This document shows positions 5,302 to 34,588 of a DNA stretch of 34,588 nucleotides, piece by piece. Origin of the DNA: Oscillospiraceae bacterium (GTDB lineage Bacteria > Bacillota > Clostridia > Oscillospirales > Ruminococcaceae); contig JAFLUD010000005.1 in NCBI GenBank assembly GCA_022508965.1, forward strand, positions 1 through 34,588, in the 5' to 3' direction. Under the pieces are notes generated by a model. It saw only the letters and a program-made list of their open reading frames with translations. It did no database searches and was not told the DNA's origin. Each line of letters opens with the position of its first letter. The first letter of the stretch is position 1. A program made the position numbers and the translations under genes.

Positions 5302-5360
5302 AAAGATCACCTCATTGATTAGTTGAAGTTTTTTACGTCCGTTTTTTAAGGAGTCAAAAG

Positions 5361-19112: not shown

Positions 19113-19851
19113 GGCACTGATTTTCGGAGGAACAACCGAGGGCAGAGAGCTTGTGGTTTTCTGCGCGGAAAACGCAATAAGCGCCGATATATCGGTCACC
19201 ACCGAGCTTGGCGCGCAGCTTCTCCCGAAAAAAAGCGGCGTAAAGATCCTCATTGGAAAGCTCGATCATGAGGGAATAAAGTCGCAGATTTTGCGGGAGG
19301 AATACTCCCTCGTCATAGACGCAACGCACCCGTTCGCACAAAACGCCACCGAAAACATCCGCGCCGCGTGCCAAGATCTGAACAGAGAATATTACCGCAT
19401 AGTCCGCGAGAATTCCGATGGGTTATTCGGGGAATTCGCCGAGAACACAGACGAATTGATAGCGCTCTTAAACCGCACCAATAAGCGAATTTTAAGCACT
19501 CTCGGAAGCAAGGAGCTGCAAGCTCTGACGCAAATTTCCGACTATGAGAATCGCGTGTTTTTGAGAGTGTTGAACGACGAGAAAATCATTGAGCAATGCA
19601 AAAAACTTGGCTTCAAAGGCAGACAGATCATACCGGGTCGCGGACCGTTTTCGGAGGAAGAAAACATCGCGCATATCCGGCAGAGCGGTGCGGAAATTCT
19701 CGTCACAAAGGACAGCGGAAAAGCGGGCGGCTATCCCGAAAAAATCGCCGCCGCAAAGCACTGCAAAATAGAATTGATAACGCTCAAACGCCCCGAGGAA
19801 AGCGGAATAACGCTTTCGGAAATTCAAAAAATAATGCTTGAAAAGAGATGA
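19105..19851 (+). CDS. cbiJ: Cobalt-precorrin-6A reductase CbiJ
   Basis: A 248-residue NAD(P)H-dependent reductase of the corrin macrocycle (CobK/CbiJ family). The N-terminal IFGGTTEGREL loop is the family's nucleotide-binding motif; VIDATHPFAQNATENI near 70 is the most diagnostic segment. LSTLGSKEL, RVLNDEKIIEQC, IIPGRGPFSEEEN and the KDSGKAGGYPEKI segment follow in the expected order. Length fits the family (about 250). It overlaps cbiH by 8 nt and cbiET by 4 nt. Compared with pnp or cellobiose phosphorylase, codon use is less biased (AAA and GAA common), as in the rest of this operon. Confidence 0.94.
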   Translation: MFKALIFGGTTEGRELVVFCAENAISADISVTTELGAQLLPKKSGVKILIGKLDHEGIKSQILREEYSLVIDATHPFAQNATENIRAACQDLNREYYRIVRENSDGLFGEFAENTDELIALLNRTNKRILSTLGSKELQALTQISDYENRVFLRVLNDEKIIEQCKKLGFKGRQIIPGRGPFSEEENIAHIRQSGAEILVTKDSGKAGGYPEKIAAAKHCKIELITLKRPEESGITLSEIQKIMLEKR

Positions 19852-21050: not shown

Positions 21051-22387
21051 ACCGAATTCTGATTGGAGGAACGCACAGCGGATGCGGCAAAACGACCGTT
21101 ACCTGCGCGCTGCTCAAAGCGCTCAGCAATAGGGGTTTGCGGGTCTCCTCATTCAAATGCGGCCCCGATTACATCGACCCGATGTTCCACAAAAAAATCA
21201 TCGGCATCGACGCGCACAACCTCGACAGCTTTTTTTGCAGCGACAACACGCTCAAATTTCTGCTGCACGAATACGCGTCGGAAATCTCCGTGATCGAAGG
21301 CGTGATGGGCTTTTACGATGGCGCGAACGGCAGAGGCTCGGCGCATTCCGTGTCGAAAATAACCGAAACCCCCGCCGCGATCGTCGTTGACTGCAAGGGA
21401 ATGAGCGACTCGATAGGCGCGGTGTTAAGCGGATTTCTCGCGTTCCAAAAACCCAACAACATCAGAGGCTTCATCTTCAACCGCCTCCCCGAAAGGCTTC
21501 GCGGTCTCGCCGAAGAGTTGTGCGAGCGTTTTGATGTGGAATATCTCGGCTGCTTTCCGACCTGTGATTTTTCGTTGGAATCACGCCACCTCGGACTTGT
21601 CACCGCCGATGAGATCCCGAACATAAAAGAACGCCTGAAACGGCTCGGGGAGCTGGCTGAGAATAATCTGAGAATCGACAGGATAATAGAAATTTCAAAC
21701 GCCCCCGCTCCGAAATTCACACCGATAAAATTCCCCGAGAACCGCTTTTCAAAGCCCGTAAAAATAGCGGTTGCGCGCGATAAAGCGTTCTGCTTTTTGT
21801 ACTCTGAGAACCTCGACCTGCTGAAAAAATTAGGCTGCGAGCTCGAGTGTTTTTCGCCGCTTTCCGACGAAAAACTCCCGCAGGGAATAAGCGGCCTGAT
21901 CCTTTGCGGCGGCTACCCCGAGCTGTACGCGCGCGAGCTGTCCGAGAACAAAGAAATGCTCTGCGAGATACAAAATGCGATATCAAAAAATCTCCCGACC
22001 ATCGCCGAGTGCGGCGGATTTATGTACCTTCACAAATCGCTTTACAATTCCGAGAACGAGGAGTCCAACCTAGTCGGAACGATCGACGCCGCAGCGCAAA
22101 AAACTGACAAATTACAGCGCTTCGGCTATGCGAATTTACGCGCGAAACGCGATAATCTGCTGTGCAATGCGGGCGAATCCTTCCCCGCGCACGAGTTCCA
22201 TTATTGGAACAGCACCGACTGCGGTGAAGATTTCATCGCTGAAAAACCCGACGGACGCTCGTGGGAATGCGTTCACGCAGCCGAAAATTTGTACGCGGGA
22301 TTTCCGCATTTGTACTTTTATTCCGACATAAAAATCGCAGAAAACTTCGTGAAAAAATGTGCGGAGTTCGGAGGAATTTATGGATAG
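21047..22387 (+). CDS. cbiA: Cobyrinate a,c-diamide synthase CbiA
   Basis: A 446-residue glutamine- and ATP-dependent amidotransferase that amidates the a and c carboxylates. The N-terminal synthetase domain has the P-loop GGTHSGCGKTT (residues 7-17), KCGPDYIDPMFH near 37-48 and EGVMGFYDG near 84. The C-terminal class I glutamine amidotransferase domain has LILCGGYPELYA near 284, the nucleophile Cys322 in AECGGFMYL and a His in AHEFHYWNS. Normal length. It overlaps cbiET by 4 nt and cobT by 8 nt. Confidence 0.95.
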   Translation: MNRILIGGTHSGCGKTTVTCALLKALSNRGLRVSSFKCGPDYIDPMFHKKIIGIDAHNLDSFFCSDNTLKFLLHEYASEISVIEGVMGFYDGANGRGSAHSVSKITETPAAIVVDCKGMSDSIGAVLSGFLAFQKPNNIRGFIFNRLPERLRGLAEELCERFDVEYLGCFPTCDFSLESRHLGLVTADEIPNIKERLKRLGELAENNLRIDRIIEISNAPAPKFTPIKFPENRFSKPVKIAVARDKAFCFLYSENLDLLKKLGCELECFSPLSDEKLPQGISGLILCGGYPELYARELSENKEMLCEIQNAISKNLPTIAECGGFMYLHKSLYNSENEESNLVGTIDAAAQKTDKLQRFGYANLRAKRDNLLCNAGESFPAHEFHYWNSTDCGEDFIAEKPDGRSWECVHAAENLYAGFPHLYFYSDIKIAENFVKKCAEFGGIYG

Positions 22388-23429
22388 AATATCGAGAATA
22401 ACCCCCCCGTCCGAGCAAGCGCGCGCGGAGGCGCACGAGCGCTGGAACAGCATAGCAAAGCCGCTTGGAAGCCTCGGCTTGTTGGAATCCCAGATCGAAA
22501 AGATCGCCGCGATCCAAGAGACCCCGAACGTAAGTTTGAGAATGCGCGGCGTTGTTGTAATGTGCGCGGACAACGGCGTAGTCTGCGAGGGAGTGACCCA
22601 GTCGGACAGCAAGGTCACCGCATTGTGCGCGAAAGCGATAGCCGACGGGAAATCGAACGTAAACGTCATGGCGCGGCAGTTCAACGCGGAGGTTTATCCC
22701 GTCGATATGGGGATCAGCCGCGAAATTTCCCACCCGCGCCTGTGGAACAAAAAAATCGCGCTTGGCACCCGCAACATCGCCGAAGAACCCGCGATGACAC
22801 GGGAGCAGGCAGAGCAGGCGATCTGCGCGGGGATAAACACCGTCCGCGACCTGATGGAGGCGGACTACGAGATACTGATAACCGGCGAAATGGGGATCGG
22901 CAACACCACCACAGCCGCCGCGCTCGCAAGCGTGCTGCTGAACAAGCCCCCTCGCGAGCTTACGGGCAGGGGTGCGGGGCTCGACAGCGCCGGTCTCGAG
23001 CGAAAGATCGCCGTGATCGAAAAGGCGATAAAGCTCCACCGCCCCAGCGCGGACAAGCCGATCGACCTGCTCTGCAAGCTCGGCGGCTTCGACATCGCGG
23101 GCATGGTGGGAATGTTTCTTGGCGGCGCGTTTTACGGCGTCCCGATCGTCATCGACGGCGTGGTCTCCGCAGCGGCGGCATGCATCGCGTACAAAATTTG
23201 CGAAATTTCGAGGGAATATATGCTCCCAAGCCACGTTTCAAGCGAGCCGGCGGGCAGGCTGCTGCTGGAGGAGATGGGACTTAAAGCGCCGATAACCGCC
23301 GAGCTGCGATTAGGCGAGGGAACAGGTGGAGTGCTGCTCCTGCCGCTGCTCGACAGCGCTCTGGCGGTGTACGAAAAGGCGCATAAGTTTGATGATCTGG
23401 GAATCGAAAGGTATACAAAATTAAAATGA
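22380..23429 (+). CDS. cobT: Nicotinate-nucleotide--dimethylbenzimidazole phosphoribosyltransferase CobT
   Basis: A 349-residue cytosolic enzyme that activates the lower-ligand base to its alpha-riboside phosphate with NaMN. Conserved segments: WNSIAKPLGSLG near 23, VVMCADNGV near 60, GVTQSDSKVTA, NVMARQF, GEMGIGNTTTAAA near 170, and LRLGEGTGGVLLLPLLD with the catalytic Glu at about 313. I choose the ATG at 22380, which has GGAGG 5 nt upstream; the frame opens 21 nt earlier at a GTG. It overlaps cbiA by 8 nt and cobU by 4 nt. The base used (dimethylbenzimidazole or another) cannot be inferred because no bza or bluB gene is in the window. Confidence 0.96.
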   Translation: MDRISRITPPSEQARAEAHERWNSIAKPLGSLGLLESQIEKIAAIQETPNVSLRMRGVVVMCADNGVVCEGVTQSDSKVTALCAKAIADGKSNVNVMARQFNAEVYPVDMGISREISHPRLWNKKIALGTRNIAEEPAMTREQAEQAICAGINTVRDLMEADYEILITGEMGIGNTTTAAALASVLLNKPPRELTGRGAGLDSAGLERKIAVIEKAIKLHRPSADKPIDLLCKLGGFDIAGMVGMFLGGAFYGVPIVIDGVVSAAAACIAYKICEISREYMLPSHVSSEPAGRLLLEEMGLKAPITAELRLGEGTGGVLLLPLLDSALAVYEKAHKFDDLGIERYTKLK

Positions 23430-23944
23430 TGACACTGGTTATCGGCGGTTCAAAATGCGGAAAATCGAGCTTTGCCGAGGAACTTTTCGCCGATTTTCTC
23501 GGAGAAAAAATTTACATCGCAACCATGCTTCCGTTTGGCGAGGAATCGCACGCGTCAATTGCGGAACACCGAAAAAAGCGCATGGGAAAAGGCTTTGCAA
23601 CGATCGAAAAATACACCGATATCGAGGAACTCTCCCTCCCCGAAAATTGCGGCGTGCTGTTGGAATGCATGGGGAATCTGTGCGCAAACGAGATGTTCCG
23701 TGACGGAAAAATCTCCGTTCCGACCGAGAAAATTATGCGGGGAATAGAACACCTCCGAACCCGCGCAAACCGCATTGTAATAGTATCGAACGACGTTTCA
23801 TCGGACGGGAATTCCTACGGGGATCCCACCGCTGAATACATTAAAATCCTCTCGGAGCTAAACAGAAAAATCGCCGAAATTTCCGACAACGTAATAGAAT
23901 GTGTTTTCGGAATTCCGCTTGTGAGAAAGGGTGCGCTGAAATGA
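23426..23944 (+). CDS. cobU: Adenosylcobinamide kinase/guanylyltransferase CobU
   Basis: A 172-residue CobU: it phosphorylates adenosylcobinamide and transfers GMP to give AdoCbi-GDP. The P-loop GGSKCGKSS is intact (residues 7-15), IATM follows, and EHRKKR at 47-52 places a His (48) where the guanylylated His of enterobacterial CobU lies. LLECMGNLCANEMF is the Walker B-like segment. The C-terminal part differs: the usual VSNEVGxGIVP stretch reads VSNDVSSDGNSYG, and the usual ARxFRD segment is replaced by AEYIKILSELNR. The C-terminus GIPLVRKG is normal. Four-nt overlaps with cobT and cobS. See the short paralogue at 24717, which keeps what this copy lacks. Confidence 0.9.
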   Translation: MMTLVIGGSKCGKSSFAEELFADFLGEKIYIATMLPFGEESHASIAEHRKKRMGKGFATIEKYTDIEELSLPENCGVLLECMGNLCANEMFRDGKISVPTEKIMRGIEHLRTRANRIVIVSNDVSSDGNSYGDPTAEYIKILSELNRKIAEISDNVIECVFGIPLVRKGALK

Positions 23945-24717
23945 TCATACTAAAATCGCTGGCGTCGGCGTTTTTGATGTACTCAAAAATTCCAATGCCG
24001 AAGGTCGAATGGCGCGAAGAAAATCGGCGTTATTCGCTTTGCTTTTTTCCGCTTGTCGGCGCGCTTATCGGCGCGGTTTTTCTGCTGTGGAGAAGCGTCT
24101 GCGCGCTGTGCGAATTCGGGCTTTTTCTAACCGGCGCGGTGTCCGTTCTGATACCGATTTTGATTACAGGAGGAATACACTTAGACGGCTTTTGCGACGT
24201 TGCCGACGCAGTCTCTTCGCGCGCCGAAAGGGAAAAAAAGCTCGCGATAATGAGCGATCCGCACATCGGAGCGTTTGCGGTGATAAGCCTCTGCGCGTAC
24301 CTGATCCTGCAAACCGCGCTGCTTTCGGAAGCGAAAAATATCCGCACGGAGATCGTCATTGCACTTGGATTTGTATTGTCGAGATCGCTCAGCGGACTCA
24401 CCGCGGTGAACTTCAAAAGCGCGAAAAAAGACGGCGCACTCAGCAATTTTACACGCCCCGCCCACAAAAGAATAACGGTAATAACGCTCTCCGTAGTGAT
24501 CGCGATAATCGGCGTTGTTATGCTGATTTCAAGCCCCCTGCCCGGCGGATTCGCCCTCGTCGGAGCTGCGCTCACCGTCGCGTGGTATCGGTATTTTTCC
24601 TACAAGAATTTTGGAGGAATAACCGGCGATCTTGCGGGTTGGTTTCTGCAAGTCTGCGAAATAACGCTGCTGATTTTTGCGGTAGTCGGAGAAAAAATAG
24701 CGGAGGTATTGACGTGA
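23941..24717 (+). CDS. cobS: Adenosylcobinamide-GDP ribazoletransferase CobS (cobalamin synthase)
   Basis: A 258-residue integral membrane enzyme that joins AdoCbi-GDP to alpha-ribazole (phosphate). The diagnostic segment GGIHLDGFCDVADAVSS followed by KLAIMSDPHIGAFAVISL lies near residues 78-120, with the acidic residues that bind metal. The N-terminal FLMYSKIPMP is typical. At least five hydrophobic helices follow. I start at the ATG at 23941 (ATGA overlap with cobU); an upstream in-frame ATG lies inside cobU. The last base of its stop is the first base of the next gene's ATG. Confidence 0.95.
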   Translation: MIILKSLASAFLMYSKIPMPKVEWREENRRYSLCFFPLVGALIGAVFLLWRSVCALCEFGLFLTGAVSVLIPILITGGIHLDGFCDVADAVSSRAEREKKLAIMSDPHIGAFAVISLCAYLILQTALLSEAKNIRTEIVIALGFVLSRSLSGLTAVNFKSAKKDGALSNFTRPAHKRITVITLSVVIAIIGVVMLISSPLPGGFALVGAALTVAWYRYFSYKNFGGITGDLAGWFLQVCEITLLIFAVVGEKIAEVLT

Positions 24718-25109
24718 TGAAAATGATAATCGGCGGCGCGTTTCAAGGAAAAGCCGCGTTCGCAAAAGAACGCTTTGAGCTTTCCGATGAAGAGATAATC
24801 GACGGCGAAATATGCGATCATAATGCGATTTTCGAGGCTAAGTGCGTGAAGAATTTCCACGCGCTCGTGAGAAGAATAGTCGAAGAAAACGGAAGCGTCT
24901 CTGAGTATGTCGAACGCCTCTGCCGCGAGAACCCAAACGCGGTGATCGTCACAAACGAGATCGGAAGCGGAATAATCCCGCTCGAAAAAAGCGAGAGGAT
25001 ATGGCGCGAACAAGCCGGAAAAGCGGGCTGCATTATCGCGAAAAATTCCGAGCTGGTCGTCAGAATTTATTGCGGGATCCCCGAAGTGATCAAGGGGGAA
25101 TTGCGTTGA
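24717..25109 (+). CDS. Short CobU-like protein with degenerate P-loop
   Basis: A 130-residue protein related to CobU but about 45 residues shorter. The P-loop position reads GGAFQGKAAFAKERF: the Lys is kept but the following Ser/Thr is Ala. The HHKxxRP-like guanylylation segment is missing. By contrast the C-terminal half is more canonical than that of the full CobU: VIVTNEIGSGIIPLEKSER, then WREQAGKAGCIIA and GIPEVIKG. It may be a regulatory or structural partner of CobU, or retain part of the reaction; that is inference. The ATG at 24717 overlaps the cobS stop by 1 nt, and its stop overlaps the cobC start by 4 nt, so it is kept in a tightly packed operon. Confidence 0.82.
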   Translation: MKMIIGGAFQGKAAFAKERFELSDEEIIDGEICDHNAIFEAKCVKNFHALVRRIVEENGSVSEYVERLCRENPNAVIVTNEIGSGIIPLEKSERIWREQAGKAGCIIAKNSELVVRIYCGIPEVIKGELR

Positions 25110-25666
25110 AAATAATCCTTATCCGCCACGGAAAAACCGCGGGAAATCTAGAAAAACGCTACATCGGAATAACCGACGAACCGCTTTGCGATGCGGGAAT
25201 AAAAGAGCTTCAAGCAATGGAATACCCCGACTGCGAACGCGTGATCTCAAGCGGAATGAAACGCTGCATCGAGACCGCGAAGCTGATATATCCCGACAAA
25301 AAAATCGAGATCTTCGAGCAACTAAACGAGTGCGATTTCGGCAGCTTCGAGGGGAAAAACTACGCCGAATTATCTGCCGATCCCGACTACCAAAAATGGC
25401 TTGACAGCGCGGGAAAACTTCCTTTTCCAAACGGCGGTGATCCCGAAAAATTCAAAACACGCTGCACCCGCGAATTCGTAAAGATCACGCAAAAATTTTC
25501 GGAAAACAAAACGCTCGCGTTCGTGATCCACGGCGGAACGATAATGTCGGTAATGGAAAAAATCGCGATACCAAAGCGAAATTTTTACGATTATCAGATT
25601 GAAAACGGACACGGCTTTGTCGCCGAATTCGACGGAAAAAACATCACAAAAACGGAGAATTTATGA
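25106..25666 (+). CDS. cobC: Alpha-ribazole phosphatase (histidine phosphatase family), CobC-like
   Basis: A 186-residue histidine phosphatase that by context removes the 5' phosphate from alpha-ribazole phosphate or adenosylcobalamin phosphate. The RHG motif lies at residues 7-9 (IRHGKTAGN), SSGMKRCIETA follows, NECDFGSFEGK holds the conserved Glu/Asp region, and VIHGGTI provides the second catalytic His. The start is TTG at 25106, with AGGGGG 7 nt upstream, and forms a TTGA overlap with the preceding stop; the frame is open earlier but lies inside the CobU-like gene. Family assignment is sure; the substrate is inferred from the operon. Confidence 0.88.
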   Translation: MKIILIRHGKTAGNLEKRYIGITDEPLCDAGIKELQAMEYPDCERVISSGMKRCIETAKLIYPDKKIEIFEQLNECDFGSFEGKNYAELSADPDYQKWLDSAGKLPFPNGGDPEKFKTRCTREFVKITQKFSENKTLAFVIHGGTIMSVMEKIAIPKRNFYDYQIENGHGFVAEFDGKNITKTENL

Positions 25667-26640
25667 GGATATTTTTACCCGCGATCCCGCTGCTTGCAGG
25701 CTTTTTGCTGGATATTATTTTGGGCGATCCGCGGTGGCTTCCGCACCCGATAAGGCTGATAGGAAAGCTGATTTCCGCGCTCGAAAAAGCCGCGCGAAAG
25801 CTGTTTTCAAAGCGCCTTTTTTTAGGAGGAACAATACTTGCTATCACAGTTTTGGTCGTCGTCACGGGAATCACATTCGCGATAATTTTCGCCTGTTACC
25901 GAATAAATATGTGGCTTGGAATTATTGTCGAAAGCATTTTCTGCTTTTACACGTTCGCCGCAAAAAGCCTGAAAACCGAGAGCATGAAGGTGCACAAGGA
26001 ACTGCAAAAAGGCAGCGTCGAGGGCGCGCGCCAAGCCCTCTCGATGATTGTCGGACGCGACACCAAGCCGCTTGACGAGGCGGGAATAATACGCGCCGCC
26101 GTCGAAACCGTGGCGGAAAACACCTCCGACGGAGTGACCGCGCCGCTGATCTTCACGGCGTTTTTCGGAGCCGCGGGCGGATTTTTTTACAAGGCGGCAA
26201 ACACTATGGATTCGATGCTCGGCTACAAAAACGAACGCTATTTTTATCTTGGAAAATTTGCCGCAAAGCTCGATGACGTGCTGAATTTCCTGCCCTCGCG
26301 AATCACCGCGCTGACGATGATCTTAAGCTCGTTTTTGTTGAACCACGATGGGAAAAACGCGTTCAGGATCTGGCGCCGCGACCGCCGAAAACACTCAAGC
26401 CCCAACTCCGCGCAAACGGAATCGGTATGCGCGGGAGCGCTCGGGGTGCGGCTTGCGGGCGACGCGTATTACTTCGGCGAACTCCACAAAAAGGAGTTTA
26501 TCGGCGACGATCTCCGCCCGATAGAAAACGGGGACATCCGCCGCGCAAACCGCCTGATGTACCTCACCTCCGCACTAATTTTAGCGGCGTGCTGCGGGGT
26601 CAGAATTTTGCTTTACGGAGGGATTTTCAATGTTTTCTGA
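25663..26640 (+). CDS. cbiB: Adenosylcobinamide-phosphate synthase CbiB
   Basis: A 325-residue integral membrane enzyme that attaches (R)-1-amino-2-propanol phosphate to adenosylcobyric acid. Conserved features: LDIILGDPRWLPHPIRLIG near residues 16-34, a hydrophobic helix near 55-78, RQALSMIVGRDT near 118, AAVETVAENTSDGVTAPL near 138 and the ANTMDSMLGYKNERY segment near 180, then KLDDVLNFLPSR. Length fits the family. It overlaps cobC by 4 nt and cobD by 11 nt, the longest overlap in the operon. It uses the product of the CobD enzyme encoded next. Confidence 0.95.
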   Translation: MRIFLPAIPLLAGFLLDIILGDPRWLPHPIRLIGKLISALEKAARKLFSKRLFLGGTILAITVLVVVTGITFAIIFACYRINMWLGIIVESIFCFYTFAAKSLKTESMKVHKELQKGSVEGARQALSMIVGRDTKPLDEAGIIRAAVETVAENTSDGVTAPLIFTAFFGAAGGFFYKAANTMDSMLGYKNERYFYLGKFAAKLDDVLNFLPSRITALTMILSSFLLNHDGKNAFRIWRRDRRKHSSPNSAQTESVCAGALGVRLAGDAYYFGELHKKEFIGDDLRPIENGDIRRANRLMYLTSALILAACCGVRILLYGGIFNVF

Positions 26641-27676
26641 ACACGGCGGCGATGCCTTCGGACTGGATATTATGTTCGATTTCTCCGCAAATTTAAATCC
26701 TTTGGGAATGCCCGAAGCCGCAAAAAAAGTGCTCAACAATTCGGTAACGGAATGGGAAAAATACCCCGATCCAAACTGCAGAAAATTGAAGCAAAAACTC
26801 GCGGCGGCGATGAATCTTGAACCCGAGCAAATCGTTTGTGGGAACGGCGCCGCGGACCTTATCTACCGCATCATTTCCACAATAAAACCGAGAAAATGTG
26901 TGCTTTGCTCCCCGACTTTTTCGGAATACGAAAAAGCTCTCCGTGAGAACAATTGCGAAATAGAGTATTTCCCGTTGCTTGAAGAGAACGATTTCCGCCT
27001 GGATGAGCGCATTTTGGAAACGCTCACAAACGGTGCCGAAATGCTGATCCTGTGCAACCCAAACAACCCCGCAGGCGGCGTGATCTCACGGGAATTGCTA
27101 AAAAAAATCTGCGAAAAATGCTCTCAAAAAAACATAACTTTTTTGTGCGACGAGTGTTTTTTGGAATTCACTGAGACCGCCGAAAACCACAGCGCATTGA
27201 ATTTTCTAAACGAAAAAACGATCGTTCTAAAAGCATTCACAAAGATCTTTGCAATGGCAGGGATCCGGCTCGGTTATGCGGTTTTCGGGGACTGCGAAAC
27301 CGCTCGGAAAACCGCGCAAAGCGGTCAGTGCTGGAGCGTTTCCGCGCCCGCGCAAATCGCAGGAACCGCCGTGCTCGACGACGAGATCGGAACAAAAATC
27401 TACCTCGAAAAAACGCTGGAATTGATCAGGACAGAGCGTGAATTCCTGAAAAAAAGCCTGAACGATTTAGGTATCCGCACGTTTGATTCCTCGGCAAATT
27501 TCCTGCTTCTGAAGTCAGATTTGCGGCTTTTTGACACGCTTTTAGAGCAGAGAATACTTATCCGTAACTGCGCGAATTTCCGCGAACTTGACGAGCGTTT
27601 TTTCCGGATCGCGGTGAGAAATCACGAAGAAAATCAAGCGCTTGTCGAAGCGTTAAGGAGGGTAATCGGTGGCTAA
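26630..27676 (+). CDS. cobD: L-threonine-O-3-phosphate decarboxylase-like PLP enzyme CobD
   Basis: A 348-residue fold-type I PLP enzyme of the histidinol-phosphate aminotransferase-like group. By context it decarboxylates threonine phosphate to aminopropanol phosphate for CbiB. Visible: N-terminal EHGGDAF and DFSANLNPLG, the NPNNPAGG loop at 143-150, Asp174 for the pyridine nitrogen, and the PLP Lys205 in AFTKIFAMAGIRLGY. Histidinol-phosphate aminotransferase is the alternative by sequence, but the HGGD start, the SANLNP motif and the operon position favour CobD. It overlaps cbiB by 11 nt and cbiP by 8 nt. Confidence 0.92.
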   Translation: MFSEHGGDAFGLDIMFDFSANLNPLGMPEAAKKVLNNSVTEWEKYPDPNCRKLKQKLAAAMNLEPEQIVCGNGAADLIYRIISTIKPRKCVLCSPTFSEYEKALRENNCEIEYFPLLEENDFRLDERILETLTNGAEMLILCNPNNPAGGVISRELLKKICEKCSQKNITFLCDECFLEFTETAENHSALNFLNEKTIVLKAFTKIFAMAGIRLGYAVFGDCETARKTAQSGQCWSVSAPAQIAGTAVLDDEIGTKIYLEKTLELIRTEREFLKKSLNDLGIRTFDSSANFLLLKSDLRLFDTLLEQRILIRNCANFRELDERFFRIAVRNHEENQALVEALRRVIGG

Positions 27677-29138
27677 AACCATTATGATCCAAGGCACCAT
27701 GTCGAACGTCGGAAAAAGCCTACTAACGGCGGCGCTATGCCGAATTTTTGCCCAAGACGGCTGCAAAGCCGCCCCCTTCAAATCGCAGAACATGGCGCTC
27801 AATTCCCACATCACATCCGACGGTCTGGAGATGGGTCGCGCGCAGGCAATGCAGGCGGAGGCGGCTGGCATCGAGCCGTCCGCGCTGATGAACCCGATCC
27901 TCCTCAAACCCACCTCCGATGCGGGTTCGCAGGTGATCGTAAACGGCGAAGTCCGCGGCAACATGACCGCCTCCGAGTATTTCGCGCGAAAAAAAGAGCT
28001 GATCCCCGAGATAACGCGCGCGTTCCAAACGCTCGCGGCGCAAAACGACATAGTGGTGATCGAAGGCGCAGGAAGCCCTGCCGAACTGAATTTAAAGACC
28101 GACGACATCGTAAATATGGGAATGGCGCGGCTCGCGAAGTCGCCCGTGCTGCTGGTCGGCGACATTGATCGCGGCGGAGTTTTCGCTCAGCTTTTGGGAA
28201 CGCTCGCGCTGTTGGAGGAATCCGAGCGCGCCATGGTAAAGGGACTTGTCGTCAACAAATTCCGCGGCGATAAAAATATTTTTTCCGACGGGATCGACAT
28301 TCTCGAACAACGCGGCAAAATTCCCGTCGCCGGTGTAATTCCGTACATTCATTGCGACATCGAGGACGAAGACAGCCTCTCCGAAAAGCTGGAAAACCGC
28401 GCCGCAGAGGGGATCATAGACATTGCGGTAATACGCTTGCCGAGGATCTCAAACTTCACCGATTTCGACGTTTTCTCACAGTACAGCGGCGTGTCGGTGC
28501 GATATGCCGCAAAGCCCGAGGAGCTGGAAACCGCCGATCTCATCATAATCCCGGGAACCAAAAGCACCATTTCCGACATGAGATTTCTGCGCGAAAGCGG
28601 ACTTGAAGCGGCGGTGAAAAAATGCGCCTCGCGGGGAACCCCGATCTTTGGCATCTGCGGAGGCTACCAGATGCTGTGCGAAGAGATCTCCGATCCGCTC
28701 TGTTCCGAGAACGGCGGAGCTATCCGCGGAATGGGACTGCTCCGCGGAAAAACCGTATTCAGCGCCGAGAAAAAACGCACCCAGACCGAGGGATTTTTCG
28801 AGAATATCGGCGGAGCGTTTTCCGCTCTTTCGGGGAAGAAATTCTCGGGCTACGAGATCCACATGGGGCAAACCGAAACCGAAGGACAGCCGCTTTTAAA
28901 CTGCGGCGGAGCGCACAGCGAAAACGTCTACGGCTGCTATATCCACGGTATTTTCGACAGCGCCGAGATCTCAAAAACCATAGTCGAAACGCTCTATGAC
29001 CGAAGAGGACTTACGTTTGACGGTAAGGCAGTCGACAGAATTGCTTACAAAAACCGCCAGTATGACCTTTTAGCGCAGTCGGTGCGCGAAAATCTGAACA
29101 TGGAGCTGGTTTACAAGATCCTCAACGACGGCTTGTAA
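27669..29138 (+). CDS. cbiP: Cobyric acid synthase CbiP
   Basis: A 489-residue glutamine-dependent amidotransferase that amidates carboxylates b, d, e and g of adenosylcobyrinate diamide. The N-terminal domain has GTMSNVGKSLLTAALCR (residues 9-25) and FKSQNMALNSH; EGAGSPAELNL and GDIDRGGVFAQLLGT follow. The C-terminal class I amidotransferase domain has PGTKSTISDM, the nucleophile Cys330 in FGICGGYQML and the His of GCYIHGIFD. The start is GTG at 27669 with AAGGAGGG upstream inside cobD; overlap is 8 nt. It is the last gene of the operon: the next unit has its own promoter 20 nt after the stop. No terminator is seen in that gap. Confidence 0.96.
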   Translation: MAKTIMIQGTMSNVGKSLLTAALCRIFAQDGCKAAPFKSQNMALNSHITSDGLEMGRAQAMQAEAAGIEPSALMNPILLKPTSDAGSQVIVNGEVRGNMTASEYFARKKELIPEITRAFQTLAAQNDIVVIEGAGSPAELNLKTDDIVNMGMARLAKSPVLLVGDIDRGGVFAQLLGTLALLEESERAMVKGLVVNKFRGDKNIFSDGIDILEQRGKIPVAGVIPYIHCDIEDEDSLSEKLENRAAEGIIDIAVIRLPRISNFTDFDVFSQYSGVSVRYAAKPEELETADLIIIPGTKSTISDMRFLRESGLEAAVKKCASRGTPIFGICGGYQMLCEEISDPLCSENGGAIRGMGLLRGKTVFSAEKKRTQTEGFFENIGGAFSALSGKKFSGYEIHMGQTETEGQPLLNCGGAHSENVYGCYIHGIFDSAEISKTIVETLYDRRGLTFDGKAVDRIAYKNRQYDLLAQSVRENLNMELVYKILNDGL

Positions 29139-29157
29139 AAGTTTGCCGAAAAAGGTA

Positions 29158-29186
29158 TTGACAAAATAGAATTAATTTGCTACAAT
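29158..29186 (+). promoter_or_regulatory. Sigma-A promoter of the riboswitch-controlled uptake operon
   Basis: TTGACA (29158-29163) and TACAAT (29181-29186) are separated by 17 nt. It begins 20 nt after the cbiP stop, so the downstream unit is transcribed independently, starting near 29193. Confidence 0.9.
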
Positions 29187-29204
29187 AAAATAAATTGAAT
29201 AAAT

Positions 29205-29380
29205 GACGTCGGGTGTCGGATGTTTTAAAAACGATCAGATGAAAAGGGAAACAGGTGCAAATCCTGTACGAACTCGTCACCGTAATAGAGGAGCGCGGAA
29301 AGAAAATGTCACTGATTTTTTCGGGAAGACCTTTCCAAGCGATGATCCTTAAGCCGGGAGACCTGCCCGCCGTCGGTACA
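29205..29380 (+). ncRNA. Cobalamin riboswitch (B12 element)
   Basis: The core of the cobalamin riboswitch is visible in order: AAGGGAA followed by GGTGCAAATCC near 29244-29264, the CGTCACCGTAAT segment near 29274-29285, the GTCACTG segment near 29308, and the B12 box AAGCCGGGAGACCTGCC at 29351-29367. By family knowledge the aptamer binds adenosylcobalamin or a related cobamide and shuts expression off. Limits are approximate because I did not fold the P1 stem with software. The terminator at 29445 is the probable expression platform. Confidence 0.93.
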
Positions 29381-29410
29381 AAATGCCACGAGTAATTGGC
29401 AGTACGTCAG

Positions 29411-29433
29411 CGCGTGCGCAAAAAGCGCATGCG
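29411..29433 (+). other. Hairpin between aptamer and terminator
   Basis: CGCGTGCGC (29411-29419) and GCGCATGCG (29425-29433) form a 9-bp stem with one G-T pair around an A5 loop. It is followed by TGTTTTGG, too poor for a terminator. It may be part of the riboswitch expression platform. Confidence 0.55.
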
Positions 29434-29444
29434 TGTTTTGGTGC

Positions 29445-29478
29445 GTCTTTACTTGCGGTAAAGACGTTTTTTATTTTT
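29445..29478 (+). terminator. Intrinsic terminator of the cobalamin riboswitch
   Basis: GTCTTTAC (29445-29452) pairs perfectly with GTAAAGAC (29458-29465), followed by GTTTTTTATTTTT. It lies directly before the GGAGG of the first gene, as expected for a transcription-attenuating riboswitch. Confidence 0.9.
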
Positions 29479-29488
29479 GGAGGAATAT

Positions 29489-29998
29489 ATGGAAAACAGC
29501 TTGCCAAACGGCGATTTCAAAGCGGAGATAACGCTCTCCGGCGGTACGGGAAGAACGACGATACAGTCCCCTGCCGACATACATATAGAAAACGGCACGA
29601 TAACCGCCGAGCTTATCTGGAGCAGTCCGAACTACGATTTTATGGAGATCGGCGGAGTAGGCTATACTCCTGTGAGCAACGACGGCAGCTCGGTATTCTC
29701 GGTAGTGATCCCCGCGCTTGATACAGAGCTTCCGATAAAAGCGGAGACCGTCGCGATGAGCGCCCCGCACATGATCGAATACACACTGCTTGTAAGCTGC
29801 GAAGAGCTTCGCCAAACCGAGCAGCCCGAGGAATCAAGCGAGATTTCGTCCTACACCGAAAGCGTCATTTCGGAAACCCCCTCCGACGCGTCAAACGCTT
29901 CCTCAACGCCCAATTTCCCCGTGTTCGCGGCGATAATAGGCGCGGCAGTTGTCGTTGCCGCGGTCATCGTAATATTGATAAAAAGAAAGAAGAAATAA
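29489..29998 (+). CDS. Predicted membrane-anchored surface domain protein A, candidate corrinoid-binding
   Basis: A 169-residue protein. Residues about 7-105 form one strand-rich domain (ITLSGGTGRTTI, DIHIENGTITAEL, IWSSPNYDFMEI, then MSAPHMIEYTLLV), followed by a Ser/Glu/Thr-rich linker (106-142) and a C-terminal membrane helix (144-164) ending in KRKKK. The same domain type is familiar in Clostridia near FecCD-type importers, and its layout recalls NEAT-like Ig folds; I cannot prove homology to NEAT. It is the first gene after the riboswitch and touches the substrate-binding protein gene (no gap). The start is ATG 29489 with GGAGG 5 nt upstream; an earlier TTG (29477) overlaps that site. 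Odd: no signal peptide is visible, although the tail predicts an outside domain. Confidence 0.8.
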   Translation: MENSLPNGDFKAEITLSGGTGRTTIQSPADIHIENGTITAELIWSSPNYDFMEIGGVGYTPVSNDGSSVFSVVIPALDTELPIKAETVAMSAPHMIEYTLLVSCEELRQTEQPEESSEISSYTESVISETPSDASNASSTPNFPVFAAIIGAAVVVAAVIVILIKRKKK

Positions 29999-31156
29999 AT
30001 GAAAAAACCGACACTTTTTTTAGCGTTTTTTGTGGGAATAACACTGCTCTTTTCCGCTTGTGAGAATCCTCAAATTAACACAGGCTCCGACGACCTCGGC
30101 GGACTTATCTTTGAAGAACGCGCAGAAAGCGAATACGCCGAGCAGTTCGCCATAGACAGATACGAGGGCGGCTATTCGCTGATAACGACGATGCTCGGAG
30201 CGCGCTATCTCGTAGTCCCCGAGGGCAAAGAACCTCCCAAAAAGCTCGCCTCGGAGATCACCGTGATAAGACAGCCCGCCGAGAATTTCTACCTTGCCGC
30301 GACCGCCGCAATGGGGCTTTTCGCCGAGCTTGGCTCAGGCGACGCGGTAAAGTTTTCGAGCATACGAGCCGACGAGTGGTACGTTGAATACGCCCGCGAC
30401 GCGATGAATTCCGGGAAAATACTCTACGCCGGAAAATACCGCGAGCCCGATTACGAGCTGCTGCTGTCGAACGGTTGCACGTTGTCTATACAGTCGACAA
30501 TGATCGAGCATTCCCCCGCGGTCAAGGAAAAGCTGCTAGAGCTTGGGATCCCCGTGTTTATAGACTACGCAAGCTACGAGCCGCACCCGCTGGGACGCGG
30601 CGAGTGGATAAAGGTATACGGCGAGATAGTCGGAAAGCCGGAAGAAGCACAGCGCCTTTTCAACGAACAGTCCGCGAAATTAAAGGCGCTCGAAAACGTC
30701 GAAAGCACGGGAAAAACCGTAGCTTTTTTCTACATAAACACAGCAGGCCAGGCGGTCGCGCGGCGTTCGGGAGACTACATCACAAAGATGATAGAACTCG
30801 GCGGCGGCGAGTATGTTTTCAAGGACTTAGGCGACTCCGAAAGCGCATTTTCTACGGTAGTAATGGAGATGGAAAAATTCTACGCGTCAGCCAAGGACGC
30901 CGACATAATCATATACAACAGCACGATAGGCGGCGAAATAAGCTCGCTTGATTCGATATTGGAGAAGAACTCCCTGCTCCGCGATTTCAAAGCGGTAAAG
31001 GAGGGTAACGTCTGGTGTACAAGGGAAAACCTCTACCAGGAAACGATGAAATTCGGGGACATGATAAACGATTTCCACTCGGTATTCAGCGGGACTGCCG
31101 AAGAAAACACCCCGACGTTCTTATATAGACCCGAAAGCGGTGAAGTGCATGAGTAA
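29999..31156 (+). CDS. ABC transporter substrate-binding lipoprotein, BtuF/FecB-like
   Basis: A 385-residue extracytoplasmic binding protein (class III, TroA/BtuF-like fold, two lobes joined by a helix). Residues 1-20 are a lipoprotein signal with the lipid-modified Cys21 (LLFSAC). The first lobe includes LAATAAMGLFAELG and LLSNGCTLSIQSTM, the second TVAFFYINTAGQAVARRSGDYI and IIYNSTIGGEISSLDSI, matching the usual segment order of corrinoid, siderophore and heme binding proteins. The riboswitch context argues for a cobamide or precursor; iron-siderophore is the alternative by sequence alone. It follows protein A with no intergenic base and overlaps the permease gene by 8 nt. Confidence 0.88.
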   Translation: MKKPTLFLAFFVGITLLFSACENPQINTGSDDLGGLIFEERAESEYAEQFAIDRYEGGYSLITTMLGARYLVVPEGKEPPKKLASEITVIRQPAENFYLAATAAMGLFAELGSGDAVKFSSIRADEWYVEYARDAMNSGKILYAGKYREPDYELLLSNGCTLSIQSTMIEHSPAVKEKLLELGIPVFIDYASYEPHPLGRGEWIKVYGEIVGKPEEAQRLFNEQSAKLKALENVESTGKTVAFFYINTAGQAVARRSGDYITKMIELGGGEYVFKDLGDSESAFSTVVMEMEKFYASAKDADIIIYNSTIGGEISSLDSILEKNSLLRDFKAVKEGNVWCTRENLYQETMKFGDMINDFHSVFSGTAEENTPTFLYRPESGEVHE

Positions 31157-32156
31157 GCCGCGCGCAAGAAATATCACGGTGTTCTCTCTGCTGATTCTGG
31201 GAGTATTCGCGGCGCTGTTATCAAGCGTTTTCATCGGCAGCACAAGCATACCGTTTGCCGAAGCCGTGAGATCCATTTTCGCACACGGAGAATACTCCGA
31301 TATCCTGTGGAAAATAAGGATCCCCCGCGCATTGTCGGCGTTGCTGTTGGGCGGCGCGCTGTCGCTGTCGGGATATCTTTTGCAAACCTTTTTCCACAAT
31401 CCGATAGCAGGTCCCTTCGTGCTGGGAGTATCTTCGGGCGCCAAGCTCACGGTAGCTCTTACAATGATCGCGGCGTTCAGATATGTGCATTCGGTAAGCT
31501 CTGGAATAATGGTCGCCGCAGCGTTTGTCGGCTCGCTTATCTCACTGGGCTTCGTGCTGCTGGTGTCGCGCAGAATGAAGCGAATGTCCATGCTGGTGGT
31601 CTGCGGGATAATGATAGGCTATATCTGTTCCGCGATAACCGATTTCGCCGTGACCTTCGCGCGCGATTCCGACATCGTAAATCTCCACGACTGGTCAAAG
31701 GGGACCTTCTCGGGAATGTCGATGAACGACGTTCTTACGATCGCTGTGATAACAGCCGCGGCGGTACTGGGAACGGTCTTTATCGTAAAACCGATGAGCG
31801 CGTATATGCTCGGCGAAAGCTACGCGCAAAGCGTCGGCGTCAACCTGAAATTCTTGAAGGTAATGCTCGTAGTGCTGTCGGGCTTGCTGTCCGCGTGCGT
31901 AACGGCGTTTGCGGGTCCTGTTTCTTTTGTGGGAATAGCCGTCCCGCATATCGTAAGGCTGCTGCTCAAGACCTCAAAGCCGTCGGTAATGATACCCGCC
32001 TGTTTTCTCGCGGGGAGCATTTTCTGCATGGCGTGCGATATGATAGCCCGAACCGCCCTGTCCCCCACCGAGCTTAGTATCAGCACCGTAACGGCGGTAT
32101 TCGGCGCACCCGTAGTCATTGGGATCCTTGTGAGAAGAAAGCGGGGCGAGATGTGA
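31149..32156 (+). CDS. ABC transporter permease, BtuC/FecCD family
   Basis: A 335-residue membrane protein with about nine or ten hydrophobic helices, the permease of a type II importer. Family signatures: RIPRALSALLLGGALSLSGYLLQ near 57, NPIAGPFVLGVSSGAKL near 85, and the C-terminal TAFAGPVSFVGIAVPHIVRLLL segment that contacts the ATPase. MIARTALSPTELSISTVTAVFGAPVVIGIL is typical, here quoted in part as PTELSISTVTAVFGAP. I prefer the ATG at 31149 (8-nt overlap with the binding-protein gene) to the GTG at 31140. Its stop overlaps the ATPase start by 1 nt. Confidence 0.92.
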   Translation: MSKPRARNITVFSLLILGVFAALLSSVFIGSTSIPFAEAVRSIFAHGEYSDILWKIRIPRALSALLLGGALSLSGYLLQTFFHNPIAGPFVLGVSSGAKLTVALTMIAAFRYVHSVSSGIMVAAAFVGSLISLGFVLLVSRRMKRMSMLVVCGIMIGYICSAITDFAVTFARDSDIVNLHDWSKGTFSGMSMNDVLTIAVITAAAVLGTVFIVKPMSAYMLGESYAQSVGVNLKFLKVMLVVLSGLLSACVTAFAGPVSFVGIAVPHIVRLLLKTSKPSVMIPACFLAGSIFCMACDMIARTALSPTELSISTVTAVFGAPVVIGILVRRKRGEM

Positions 32157-32908
32157 TGGAAACGGCTGTGTCTGTAAAGGATTTGTCCGCGGGCTACGGC
32201 AAAGGAAACGTTATAGAGAACGTTTCCTTTGAAGTGAATTACGGTGAGATCCTCACGCTGATAGGACCCAACGGCGGCGGAAAATCCACCGTGATAAAAG
32301 CGGTCACTGGCTTTCTGGAAAAGAGCGGCGGCGAGGTAACGCTCTGCGGAGAAAACGCGGAAAAGCTCGGCCGCGCGAAGCTGTCCAAGCTGCTTTCGGT
32401 AATGCTCACCGAACGCGTAAAGCCCGACCTGATGACCTGCCGCGACGTAGTCGCCGCGGGAAGATATCCTTACACGGGAATGTTCGGCGCGTTGAGCGCG
32501 GAGGACGGCGAGATCGTCGAAAACGCGCTGAAAACCGTCGAAGCCGAAGCCCTCGCCGACGCGGATTTCAATTCCGTAAGCGACGGGCAGCGGCAGCGCA
32601 TCCTGCTCGCCCGCGCGATCTGCCAGCAGCCGAAAATACTCGTGCTCGACGAGCCTACGTCCTACCTCGATATCCGCCATAAGATCGTGTTTTTCGAGAT
32701 ACTCGAAAAGCTGGTTCGCGAGCGGAACATAGCGGTCATACTGTCGCTCCACGAGCTTGATCTCGCGTCGAAAGTCTCCGACAGGATAGCCTGCATAAAG
32801 GGCGGCAAAATCACGCATACGGGAACCTCGGAAGAGATCTTCACCGAGCAGAATATCCGCGAACTCTATGAGATCCCCGAAGAGCTTTACCGCAAATATT
32901 TCGACTAA
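32156..32908 (+). CDS. ABC transporter ATP-binding protein, BtuD/FecE-like
   Basis: A 250-residue cytosolic ATPase of the importer. Walker A GPNGGGKST lies near residues 36-44, a Q-loop-equivalent region follows (SVMLTERVKPD, where a Thr stands near the usual Gln), the signature reads VSDGQRQR (the usual LSGGQ is SDGQ), Walker B is ILVLDEPTSYLD and the switch His is in LSLHELD. The start ATG at 32156 forms TGATG with the permease stop. Together with the two genes before it this gives a complete BtuFCD-type importer. A possible GTG start three bases earlier would add one residue. Confidence 0.93.
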   Translation: METAVSVKDLSAGYGKGNVIENVSFEVNYGEILTLIGPNGGGKSTVIKAVTGFLEKSGGEVTLCGENAEKLGRAKLSKLLSVMLTERVKPDLMTCRDVVAAGRYPYTGMFGALSAEDGEIVENALKTVEAEALADADFNSVSDGQRQRILLARAICQQPKILVLDEPTSYLDIRHKIVFFEILEKLVRERNIAVILSLHELDLASKVSDRIACIKGGKITHTGTSEEIFTEQNIRELYEIPEELYRKYFD

Positions 32909-32950
32909 ATGTGCATTGCACGTTTAAATAATTTTTTGGAGGAATTTATT

Positions 32951-33508
32951 ATGAAAAGAGTTATAACGTTTATGGTGACGGCAGCGCTGTGCTTTGGCGC
33001 GCTGTGCCTCACCGCCTTCGCGGGAGTAGCCCCCGCCGCGCTGAACAACGGCACCTACAATATCGACGTTGAATCCAACGCCTCGATGTTCAAGGTAGTA
33101 AACTGCGATATTACCGTAGAGAACGGCGTGATGACCGCTCTGGTAACGCTCTCGGGCAAGGGCTACGGCAAGCTGTTCGTCGGGACGGCTGAGCAGGCTC
33201 AGAATGCCCCCGAGTCGCAGTACATCCCGTTTTCCGAGAACGCCGACGGACAGTATGTTTACAGCGTCCCGCTGACCTCGCTCGACGCCGAGATAGCTAT
33301 TGCCGCGTGGAGCACCAAAAACGAACAGTGGTACGACAGAACCCTGACGTTCAAGTCAGACAAGCTCCCCCAAAGCGCGTATAAAACCGCCGTTCCCGAA
33401 GCTCCCGATAAAGAAAACCCCGACACCGGCGCCAACATCGCCATAGCTTTTGCAACGGCAGCCATCGCCGCGTCAGCGGTTGCTGTCAGCCGCCGTCGGT
33501 CGAAATAA
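32951..33508 (+). CDS. Predicted sortase-anchored surface domain protein B, candidate corrinoid-binding
   Basis: A 185-residue exported protein. Residues 1-24 are a signal peptide (KRVITFMVTAALCFGALC, then AFA). Residues about 32-140 form a strand-rich domain related to that of protein A: DITVENGVMTALV here matches DIHIENGTITAEL there, and both end in a Tyr-x-hT-LhF/V strand. The C-terminus has an LPXTG-like sorting signal NPDTG (156-160), a hydrophobic Ala-rich helix and an RRRSK tail, so wall anchoring by a sortase is predicted. GGAGG lies 8 nt before the ATG. Lysine codons are largely AAG in the domain, unlike the neighbouring cobamide genes, hinting at high expression. Ligand is unknown; corrinoid is inferred from the operon. 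Confidence 0.82.
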   Translation: MKRVITFMVTAALCFGALCLTAFAGVAPAALNNGTYNIDVESNASMFKVVNCDITVENGVMTALVTLSGKGYGKLFVGTAEQAQNAPESQYIPFSENADGQYVYSVPLTSLDAEIAIAAWSTKNEQWYDRTLTFKSDKLPQSAYKTAVPEAPDKENPDTGANIAIAFATAAIAASAVAVSRRRSK

Positions 33509-33519
33509 TCGGGATTGAT

Positions 33520-34017
33520 ATGCTCCACATATATTGCGGAAACGGCAAGGGAAAAACCACCGCCGCCATAGGGCTTTGTGTACGCGCGGCGGGCGCGGGA
33601 ATGAAGGTGGCTTTCGTGCAGCTTATGAAAGGGAATGAAACCTCCGAGCTTGCCTCGCTGAGATCAGTCCCGAATATTGAGATAAGCCGCTGCAACAGAG
33701 ATTACGGCTTTTTCAAGAACATGACCGCCGCGGATAAAGCCGAGATAACCGCCTGCCATAATAAGCTGTTAAACGGCGTTTTTTTCGGGGAATTCGACGT
33801 GATCATTCTCGACGAATTCTGCGCCGCCTATAACCATGATCTGCTTGACAGAACGCTCGCTGAAAAGCTGATCCTAAGCGCGTCCGCCGAGGTCGTGCTG
33901 ACGGGAAGAGACCCCGCCGAGCCGTTCCTAAACGCCGCGGATTATATCAGTGAGATCCACTGCGAAAAACACCCGTATGAAAAAGGCATAGCCGCAAGGA
34001 GGGGTATCGAGTTTTGA
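33520..34017 (+). CDS. cobO: Cob(I)yrinic acid a,c-diamide adenosyltransferase CobO/BtuR
   Basis: A 165-residue cytosolic enzyme that transfers the 5'-deoxyadenosyl group of ATP to Co(I) corrinoids. The P-loop GNGKGKTTAAIGL (residues 7-19) directly at the N-terminus, VAFVQLMKG near 30, VIILDEFCAA near 95 and TGRDP near 127 match the CobA/CobO/BtuR type. It is slightly shorter than enterobacterial BtuR (about 196) because the N-terminal extension is missing, which is usual in Firmicutes. It lies 11 nt after protein B. It serves both de novo synthesis and salvage of imported corrinoid, which fits its place in the uptake operon. Confidence 0.94.
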   Translation: MLHIYCGNGKGKTTAAIGLCVRAAGAGMKVAFVQLMKGNETSELASLRSVPNIEISRCNRDYGFFKNMTAADKAEITACHNKLLNGVFFGEFDVIILDEFCAAYNHDLLDRTLAEKLILSASAEVVLTGRDPAEPFLNAADYISEIHCEKHPYEKGIAARRGIEF

Positions 34018-34588
34018 AGATGGAATTTGTCCTCCCGAGCGAGATCGAAAAACGCAGCTTCGAGATGATCGAAAGCGAGCTGCCGCGTGAGATACCCTCA
34101 AAGGAAAAGCCGATCGTGATGCGCGTGATCCACGCCACGGCAGACTTCGATTATTGCGAAAGCCTGAAGTTTTCCGAGAACGCCGTCGATCTTGCCCTGG
34201 AGACCATAAGGAACGGCGCGGTGTTCGTAACCGACACCAACATGACAAAGGCGGGGATCAACAAACCCGCGCTGGAAAAGCTCGGCTGCACCGCCGAATG
34301 CTTCATGTCCGATGAAGAGACCGCCCGCGCGGCCTCCGAGCAGGGAATAACACGCGCCACGGCGTCGGTGGACATAGCCTCGCGGATAGAAAAGCCCGTG
34401 ATCTATGCGGTCGGAAACGCCCCCACCGCATTGGTGAGGATCTGCGAGCTTGCCGAACGCGGGAGCTTCACCCCCGCGATGGTGATAGGCGTTCCGGTGG
34501 GCTTTGTAAACGTGGAATATTCCAAGGAACTTCTGACCCGCTCGGGACTGCCGTACATAGCCACAATGGGCAGAAAAGGCGGCAGCAC
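34014..34588 (+). CDS. cbiC: Cobalt-precorrin-8 methylmutase CbiC (3' end outside window)
   Basis: The first 191 codons of CbiC, which moves the C11 methyl to C12 to give cobyrinic acid, the last ring step. RVIHATADFDY with His40 (the catalytic His of the family, usually near 43), FVTDTNMTKAGI near 74, AVGNAPTAL near 137 and IGVPVGFVNVEYSKE near 160 are diagnostic. The start is probably TTG at 34014 (TTGA overlap with cobO, AAGGAGGGG upstream); ATG at 34020 is possible but further from the ribosome site. The frame is still open at the window end; about 20 residues are missing by family length. Confidence 0.93.
   Translation, partial: MKMEFVLPSEIEKRSFEMIESELPREIPSKEKPIVMRVIHATADFDYCESLKFSENAVDLALETIRNGAVFVTDTNMTKAGINKPALEKLGCTAECFMSDEETARAASEQGITRATASVDIASRIEKPVIYAVGNAPTALVRICELAERGSFTPAMVIGVPVGFVNVEYSKELLTRSGLPYIATMGRKGGS

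Follow-up and report, generated by a model that had tools for sequence, protein, structure and literature searches.

The 34,588-nucleotide stretch of contig JAFLUD010000005.1 analysed here (Oscillospiraceae bacterium, assembly GCA_022508965.1), hereafter called the window, features a gene arrangement in which two related proteins, A and B, enclose a BtuFCD-type importer downstream of a cobalamin riboswitch. Both proteins contain a domain with the NEAT fold, the position of the iron-binding tyrosine is changed in both, and gene order and riboswitch are conserved across families. This suggests that the design of a heme relay has been re-used for the capture of B12-type molecules. The locus comprises the following elements (ORF, open reading frame):

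29158-29186, plus strand: promoter-like site TTGACA-17-TACAAT, 11/12 consensus matches, TG ahead of the second hexamer
29194-29384, plus strand: cobalamin riboswitch aptamer RF00174, 108.2 bits (cut-off 31.5)
29443-29467, plus strand: intrinsic terminator-like hairpin followed by a T tract; 29430-29480 folds at -13.1 kcal/mol (z -2.98)
29489-29998, plus strand: protein A, N-terminal NEAT-fold domain (type d2, HxxxY), linker, C-terminal membrane segment and KRKKK tail (from ORF, models and sequence)
29999-31156, plus strand: BtuF-like substrate-binding protein (Peripla_BP_2, E 3e-29), lipoprotein-type leader assigned by reading
31149-32156, plus strand: BtuC-like FecCD permease (Pfam, E 1e-73)
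32153-32908, plus strand: BtuD-like ATPase (ABC_tran, E 2.6e-28)
32906-32926, plus strand: small hairpin with T-rich tail between btuD and the gene for B (structure/terminator-like scan)
32951-33508, plus strand: protein B, signal peptide (by reading), NEAT-fold domain (type d1, WYD motif) and NPDTG wall-sorting signal (NCBIfam, models)
33520-34017, plus strand: CobO/BtuR corrinoid adenosyltransferase, 11 bases past B (Pfam, E 2.6e-47)
34014-34586, plus strand: CbiC-like gene running past the end of the window, named by reading of the ORF
15475-29138, plus strand: upstream corrin biosynthesis cluster (Pfam for ten genes, the remainder from ORF sequence)

A promoter, a cobalamin riboswitch and a terminator had been placed before A by an earlier reading of the letters alone (the sequence-only reading), and all three were located. 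The scan yielded three promoter-like sites, with 2.9 expected in shuffled sequence, so that the promoter call rests solely on the quality of its match; terminator-like sites in the region number nine, with 6.2 in shuffles. The riboswitch is the sole cobalamin riboswitch detected in a search of the whole 2.0-Mb assembly, whose completeness is rated 90%. The importer announced by the same reading is likewise complete: a Peripla_BP_2 protein, a FecCD permease and an ABC ATPase are encoded in one operon, as in BtuFCD, and are followed by B. A single-sequence search with the BtuF-like protein found no relative in the PDB at E 1e-5. The small hairpin behind btuD could attenuate B and thereby lower its expression relative to the importer.

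That A and B share a domain, as proposed before, is borne out by a single BLASTP comparison (E 2e-7, 31% identity) and by a profile started from A alone that recovers B; the domains span 29489-29815 in A and 33029-33391 in B. Structure models of both domains have the immunoglobulin-like NEAT fold. PF05031, the Pfam family for NEAT, was not listed for either domain at E up to 10 with the HMMER filters on, and the curated cut-off of 32.8 bits is not reached even by the best relative (L033, 29.1 bits); Pfam NEAT gave no match at E 0.001 in the window's own genome, and Pfam and NCBIfam scans of A and B returned nothing over cut-off save the NPXTG anchor of B. In sequence searches of the PDB, the B-type profile matched IsdX2-NEAT5 weakly (E 0.008). 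One run with A-type profiles returned no NEAT chain up to E 10, and another gave IsdX1 at E 0.08-0.09 alongside unrelated chains.

In the heme-binding motif YXXXY the first tyrosine binds iron and the second forms a hydrogen bond (PMC7815599, excerpt). Neither domain type carries this motif with an iron-binding primary tyrosine. Among A-type sequences matching a pattern that requires the second tyrosine, the primary position is histidine in 39/44, tyrosine in 3/44, arginine in one and valine in one, a pattern match in an unrelated ORF of locus L038 having been removed from the original 45 rows. The three copies with YxxxY support mapping of HxxxY onto YXXXY, a mapping made on sequence and not by residue-level superposition; in A itself the two residues are His94 and Tyr98. 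The second tyrosine is invariant in 29/29 rows of alignment A5, and the histidine was also read by eye in 11 further short A-type proteins, while two proteins of genome G463 differ. In the B type, a profile alignment to IsdX2-NEAT5 (4h8q) places the tyrosine of WYD at the second position, and the first tyrosine is not kept. At the lip motif SXXXXY (3-10 helix), the A type looks shorter than IsdX1 in a weak alignment (E 0.08-0.09), and B keeps Ser-Met-Phe near that place. In corrinoid proteins, histidine is known to serve as a cobalt ligand, and the exchange of tyrosine for histidine appears compatible with a corrinoid ligand without being proof of it.

Relatives were gathered by the A domain from even samples of larger groups, the window's own genome being counted in each draw: the domain occurs in 17/245 genomes of the order (E 0.01), and its profile in 22/391 genomes of the class and 17/398 of the phylum (both E 0.001). 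The total is 52 different genomes with 22 family labels, one false match (G167) included. Eight further named loci came from GTDB contigs, among them two metagenome-assembled Clostridia genomes with the exact order of the window and two Butyrivibrio strains. The closest pair compared is 93% identical, in a copy check that covered named against unnamed loci and the unnamed among themselves, not pairs within the eight named loci. We annotated 62 neighbourhoods (L024-L048, L078-L097, L118-L134) using the proteins of the window and its relatives. The d2 domain is present in 60/62 and, in 54/62, immediately precedes BtuF or forms one protein with it (nine fusions). The eight exceptions are L027 and L128 (contig edge), L047 (false match), L085 and L122 (second loci with CbiK and no BtuF), L131 and L134 (divergent) and L132 (d1 only). 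In L130, CbiK, d1 and d2 are joined in one protein, with d2 at its C-terminus, immediately ahead of BtuF. Both domain types occur in 49/62 neighbourhoods, in 19 of them as d1 followed by d2 in one protein. The order A-BtuFCD-B of the window is common to L024 and L025, and A-BtuFCD-CbiK-B is found in L080, L081, L083, L086 and L089, where the CbiK gene occupies the very junction that holds the small hairpin in the window. Because only the A domain served as query, the search itself cannot account for BtuFCD being there. Counted by genome, d2 adjoins or is fused to BtuF in 47/52 (19 family labels), and 38 of these, with 17 family labels, also have a cobalamin riboswitch upstream.

The genomes feature some variations on this theme. 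Four loci sharing genus label g37 (L035, L036, L037, L039) encode two BtuF-type proteins in tandem before one BtuCD, and in family label f27 large proteins with NEAT-like stretches are encoded at or beside the operon (L095:6990-9404, L096:10507-16628, L131:8065-9963).

RF00174 gave 153 matches in the 52 genomes. With one row per locus, 43/55 loci have a riboswitch on their strand no more than 5 kb upstream (28/38, 14/16 and the window's own), a count at E 0.001 that includes two matches under the Rfam cut-off (G109, 26.1 bits; G245:C7, 30.8 bits); one random place per genome would give 0.19. The 55 include G245:C7, which is not among the 62 neighbourhoods, and leave out second domains in G201, G339, G485, G657, G972, G719, G900, G896 and G958, the B genes of G000 (the source assembly), G390 and G432, and repeat rows of G330, G355 and G000. 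Two loci of the 38 have a riboswitch 9.2 and 9.6 kb away and were not counted. Of the twelve misses, G051, G107, G657 and G964 lie at contig ends, G167 is the false match (E 0.008, no context) and was kept as a miss, and in G346:C86 and G463 the riboswitch is over 9 kb away; the other five are taken up below. Among the eight named loci, the fetched stretch contains a riboswitch in five (L024, L025, L027, L028, L029), and for L031 little upstream sequence could be scanned. In contrast, these 52 genomes contain 17 NEAT matches over the Pfam cut-off, spread over ten ORFs in four of them, and 1/17 (in G463) has a riboswitch within 5 kb; this contrast set is small and the loci are related by descent, so Fisher tests on the two counts carry little weight, and one of the 17 rows (G463:C55:10400) is also among the 55. 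The sequence-only reading had asked for such a count and had stated what would speak against it, namely that most homologues lie in loci regulated by iron or heme and retain heme ligands. Judged by cobalamin riboswitches and ligand residues this is not what the homologues look like, Fur sites of the relatives not having been searched.

Some further riboswitches and NEAT matches were noted in these genomes. G463 encodes two NEAT proteins over the Pfam cut-off (L134:14214-14954 and 5200-5811) with FecCD-type genes between them; the domain of the first lies 381 bases downstream of a cobalamin riboswitch, and two more riboswitches are near by. NEAT matches below the cut-off are found about 1.3 kb downstream of a cobalamin riboswitch in other proteins (G330:C4:8479-8637, G617:C1:21291-21569). 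A NiCo riboswitch (L043:11450-11521) precedes a putative cation transporter, named by reading, just upstream of the operon in a genome with no detected cobalamin riboswitch.

Surface display had been predicted for both proteins. For B, the prediction is upheld by a match to the NPXTG anchor family NF033846 (28.7 bits, cut-off 23.5) next to the signal peptide, and the assembly contains three sortase matches over cut-off on contig C160. For A, the C-terminal membrane segment and its KRKKK tail are confirmed, but a signal peptide is missing: the gene starts at the ATG after GGAGGAATAT, and the ORF has in-frame stops upstream. A hidden signal peptide further upstream was considered for the window, L024 and L025 and rejected; the stretch there is riboswitch and terminator. 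A signal peptide is likewise missing in the A proteins of ten relatives (L024, L025, L078, L080, L081, L083, L086-L089) from four family labels and two of the named metagenome-assembled genomes; for L025, L081, L086, L087 and L089 the listed ORF starts farther upstream and an internal methionine beside the domain was taken, by reading, as the start. All eleven leaderless proteins end in a membrane segment and basic tail, as do the homologues with signal peptide in L042, L085, L119 and L124-L128. There are three to six lysine or arginine residues in the tail and zero to three basic residues in the 20 positions before the membrane segment, a distribution that fits a domain outside and a tail inside the cell, and this orientation is predicted for A. 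Escherichia coli ProW provides a precedent for a long exported N-terminal tail.

Taken as a whole, the locus probably encodes a NEAT-domain relay adapted to corrinoids, with the architecture of the Isd heme relay and a different cargo and regulator. At low cellular cobalamin the riboswitch would permit transcription of the operon. B on the cell wall would bind corrinoid outside, and A, anchored in the membrane through its C-terminal segment and exposing the NEAT domain to the outside, would receive it and pass it on to the BtuF-like lipoprotein. Import by BtuCD would follow, and CobO, encoded next door, would adenosylate the imported corrinoid. We lean slightly towards a wider proposal, namely that the relatives represent a second NEAT branch dedicated to corrinoids, a riboswitch-controlled surface relay found phylum-wide and composed of two NEAT types, an exported CbiK-like protein and BtuFCD; cobalt may be ligated by the histidine that replaces the iron-binding tyrosine, and one branch would export its membrane NEAT protein without a signal peptide. 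Of the surface relay tied to a B12-regulated FecCD-type importer that the sequence-only reading had put forward, architecture and fold are supported, corrinoid as the cargo and the direction of transfer are proposals, and the export of A lacks its usual signal.

Several observations weigh against a corrinoid relay. The best NCBIfam match of the permease is BtuC (NF003001), at 205.6 bits well under the cut-off of 334, and that of the BtuF-like protein is a weak one to the heme protein IsdE (23.5 bits). The need for import is not obvious in an organism with a large corrin cluster of its own. No riboswitch was found at E 0.001 upstream of the loci in G053, G083, G220, G071 and G330, for which upstream sequence was at hand, nor at the Rfam gathering score in several kb scanned upstream of L026 and L030. 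The wall signal of B is not general either: among five relatives scanned, the close relative L024 scores 21.4 bits and the B-position proteins of L025, L080, L081 and L086 have no NF033846 match at E 0.001, those of L080, L081 and L086 ending instead in a membrane segment and basic tail. To these points the absence of a signal peptide from A has to be added. Finally, a CbiK-like protein accompanies the system in 46/62 neighbourhoods, and the one in L032 has the heme-binding FetB (9b86, E 4e-51) as its best PDB match, followed by Salmonella-type CbiK (1qgo, 3e-49), which makes heme or another tetrapyrrole a possible ligand.

The sequence-only reading could not see this usual partner, a CbiK-like chelatase, because its gene is absent from the window. 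It bears on an alternative that we regard as unlikely though of some substance: the cargo is another tetrapyrrole (heme, cobalt-porphyrin or cobalt-sirohydrochlorin), controlled by cobalamin because it supplies cobalt or a corrin precursor, and in the relatives metal would be inserted or removed by the exported CbiK-like protein and the ring carried by NEAT domains. The frequency of the partner, its fusion to a NEAT domain in five cases and the lipoprotein-type leaders carried by most of the CbiK-like proteins read (L085 has none) would suit this idea, as would the kinship of the L032 protein with FetB and the crystallization of an IsdA NEAT domain with cobalt-protoporphyrin (3qzp). Moreover, a search of the source assembly at E 0.001 detected no CbiK and no CbiX despite its large corrin cluster (15475-34586), which leaves cobalt insertion without an assigned chelatase, and uptake of a ring that already carries its metal would be a sensible solution; the chelatases may, however, simply be missing from an assembly that is 90% complete. 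Against this idea stand the absence of CbiK from the locus in the window and its two nearest relatives, which have retained everything else, and the change at the iron-binding tyrosine in the A type as well as the B type. Second loci in G346 (L085:7242-8608) and G923 (L122:7824-9715), in which a CbiK-like gene (leaderless in L085) adjoins a NEAT protein, contain no BtuF.

It is improbable that A acts inside the cell, with a membrane-tethered cytoplasmic NEAT domain that takes corrinoid from BtuCD for CobO, leaving B alone outside. The eleven A proteins without signal peptide would fit, and so would the ribosome-binding sites, which by reading look sound where the listed start adjoins the domain. 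In many other neighbourhoods, however, d2 belongs to proteins with a lipoprotein leader or signal peptide, or to a fusion with BtuF, and the charge distribution around the membrane segment fits a domain outside and matches that of the homologues with signal peptide. An ordinary heme or iron uptake system lying in the corrin cluster by chance is very unlikely: the NEAT fold together with an importer of the FecCD type is the classic combination for heme, but the riboswitch association described above sets these loci apart from Pfam-grade NEAT matches, and the window has no match to a Fur-type box with up to three mismatches to one consensus, which may not fit the host.

The corrinoid relay resembles several known systems without coinciding with any of them. 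With the Isd, IsdX and Hbp heme relays (PF05031) it shares the fold, surface display by wall or membrane anchors and the position of NEAT proteins beside a FecCD-type importer; it differs in its position under a cobalamin riboswitch, in domains below the Pfam cut-off, in having histidine (A) or no tyrosine (B) at the iron-binding position and in the CbiK-like partner of most relatives. Binding lipoprotein, FecCD permease, ATPase and upstream cobalamin riboswitch are those of BtuFCD importers, from which the added NEAT-fold proteins and a permease under the NCBIfam BtuC cut-off set it apart. Surface capture of corrinoid ahead of an importer, as proposed here, recalls the B12-binding surface lipoproteins BtuG and BtuH of Bacteroidetes, but BtuG, which cooperates with BtuB, has a beta-propeller fold (PMC6977713, excerpt), whereas the models of A and B are NEAT and not beta-propeller. 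A combination of cbiK and the btuCDF importer genes under one cobalamin riboswitch (B12-element) was noted for Desulfovibrio in 2004; this organism is Gram-negative, and the available excerpt mentions no NEAT protein (PMC545781). FetB, titled a heme-binding protein in its PDB entry, is the closest solved relative of the CbiK-like lipoprotein of L032, and the window has no such gene.

In the open-access literature, preprints and subscription papers excluded, the accessible portions contained no description of NEAT proteins in corrinoid uptake. Among Gram-positive gut bacteria, many possess homologues of btuFCD but no btuB, and a review suggests that they rely on variants of the machinery already known (PMC6977713, excerpt). 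A 2014 survey describes a clostridial NEAT group without the YXXXY heme motif and allows for another, unidentified role; its main text contains no occurrence of cobalamin, B12 or cobalt (PMC4143258). The terms 'NEAT domain' and 'cobalamin' occur together in PMC7299338 and PMC5736727, with no link between them, and 'NEAT domain' and 'corrinoid' in PMC10327494, which, as far as its excerpt goes, concerns S-layer proteins. A paper on corrinoid starvation in Dehalobacter describes riboswitch-led BtuFCD operons and has no occurrence of NEAT. Cobalamin riboswitches can respond to several corrinoids (PMC9600662, excerpt), so the type of regulator does not identify the particular corrinoid. If the proposal is true, a wall-to-membrane corrinoid relay would be the Gram-positive counterpart of the Bacteroidetes surface system, one chaperone fold would serve two metal tetrapyrroles, and caution would be due before every NEAT protein of anaerobes is called a heme protein.

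The importer unit lies inside a corrin biosynthesis cluster spanning 15.5-34.6 kb. Pfam identified CbiD, CbiG, CbiJ, three tetrapyrrole methylases, a CobB/CbiA-type amidotransferase, a CobT-type phosphoribosyltransferase, CobU and a histidine phosphatase, while CbiB, CobD and CobQ, like the downstream CbiC, were named by reading of the ORFs. Farther along the window's own contig, downstream of the window, a protein with a PocR-type sensor domain and, behind it, an iron-type alcohol dehydrogenase (both by reading) are encoded (L048:9645-11880), a pair that may link corrinoid supply to propanediol use.

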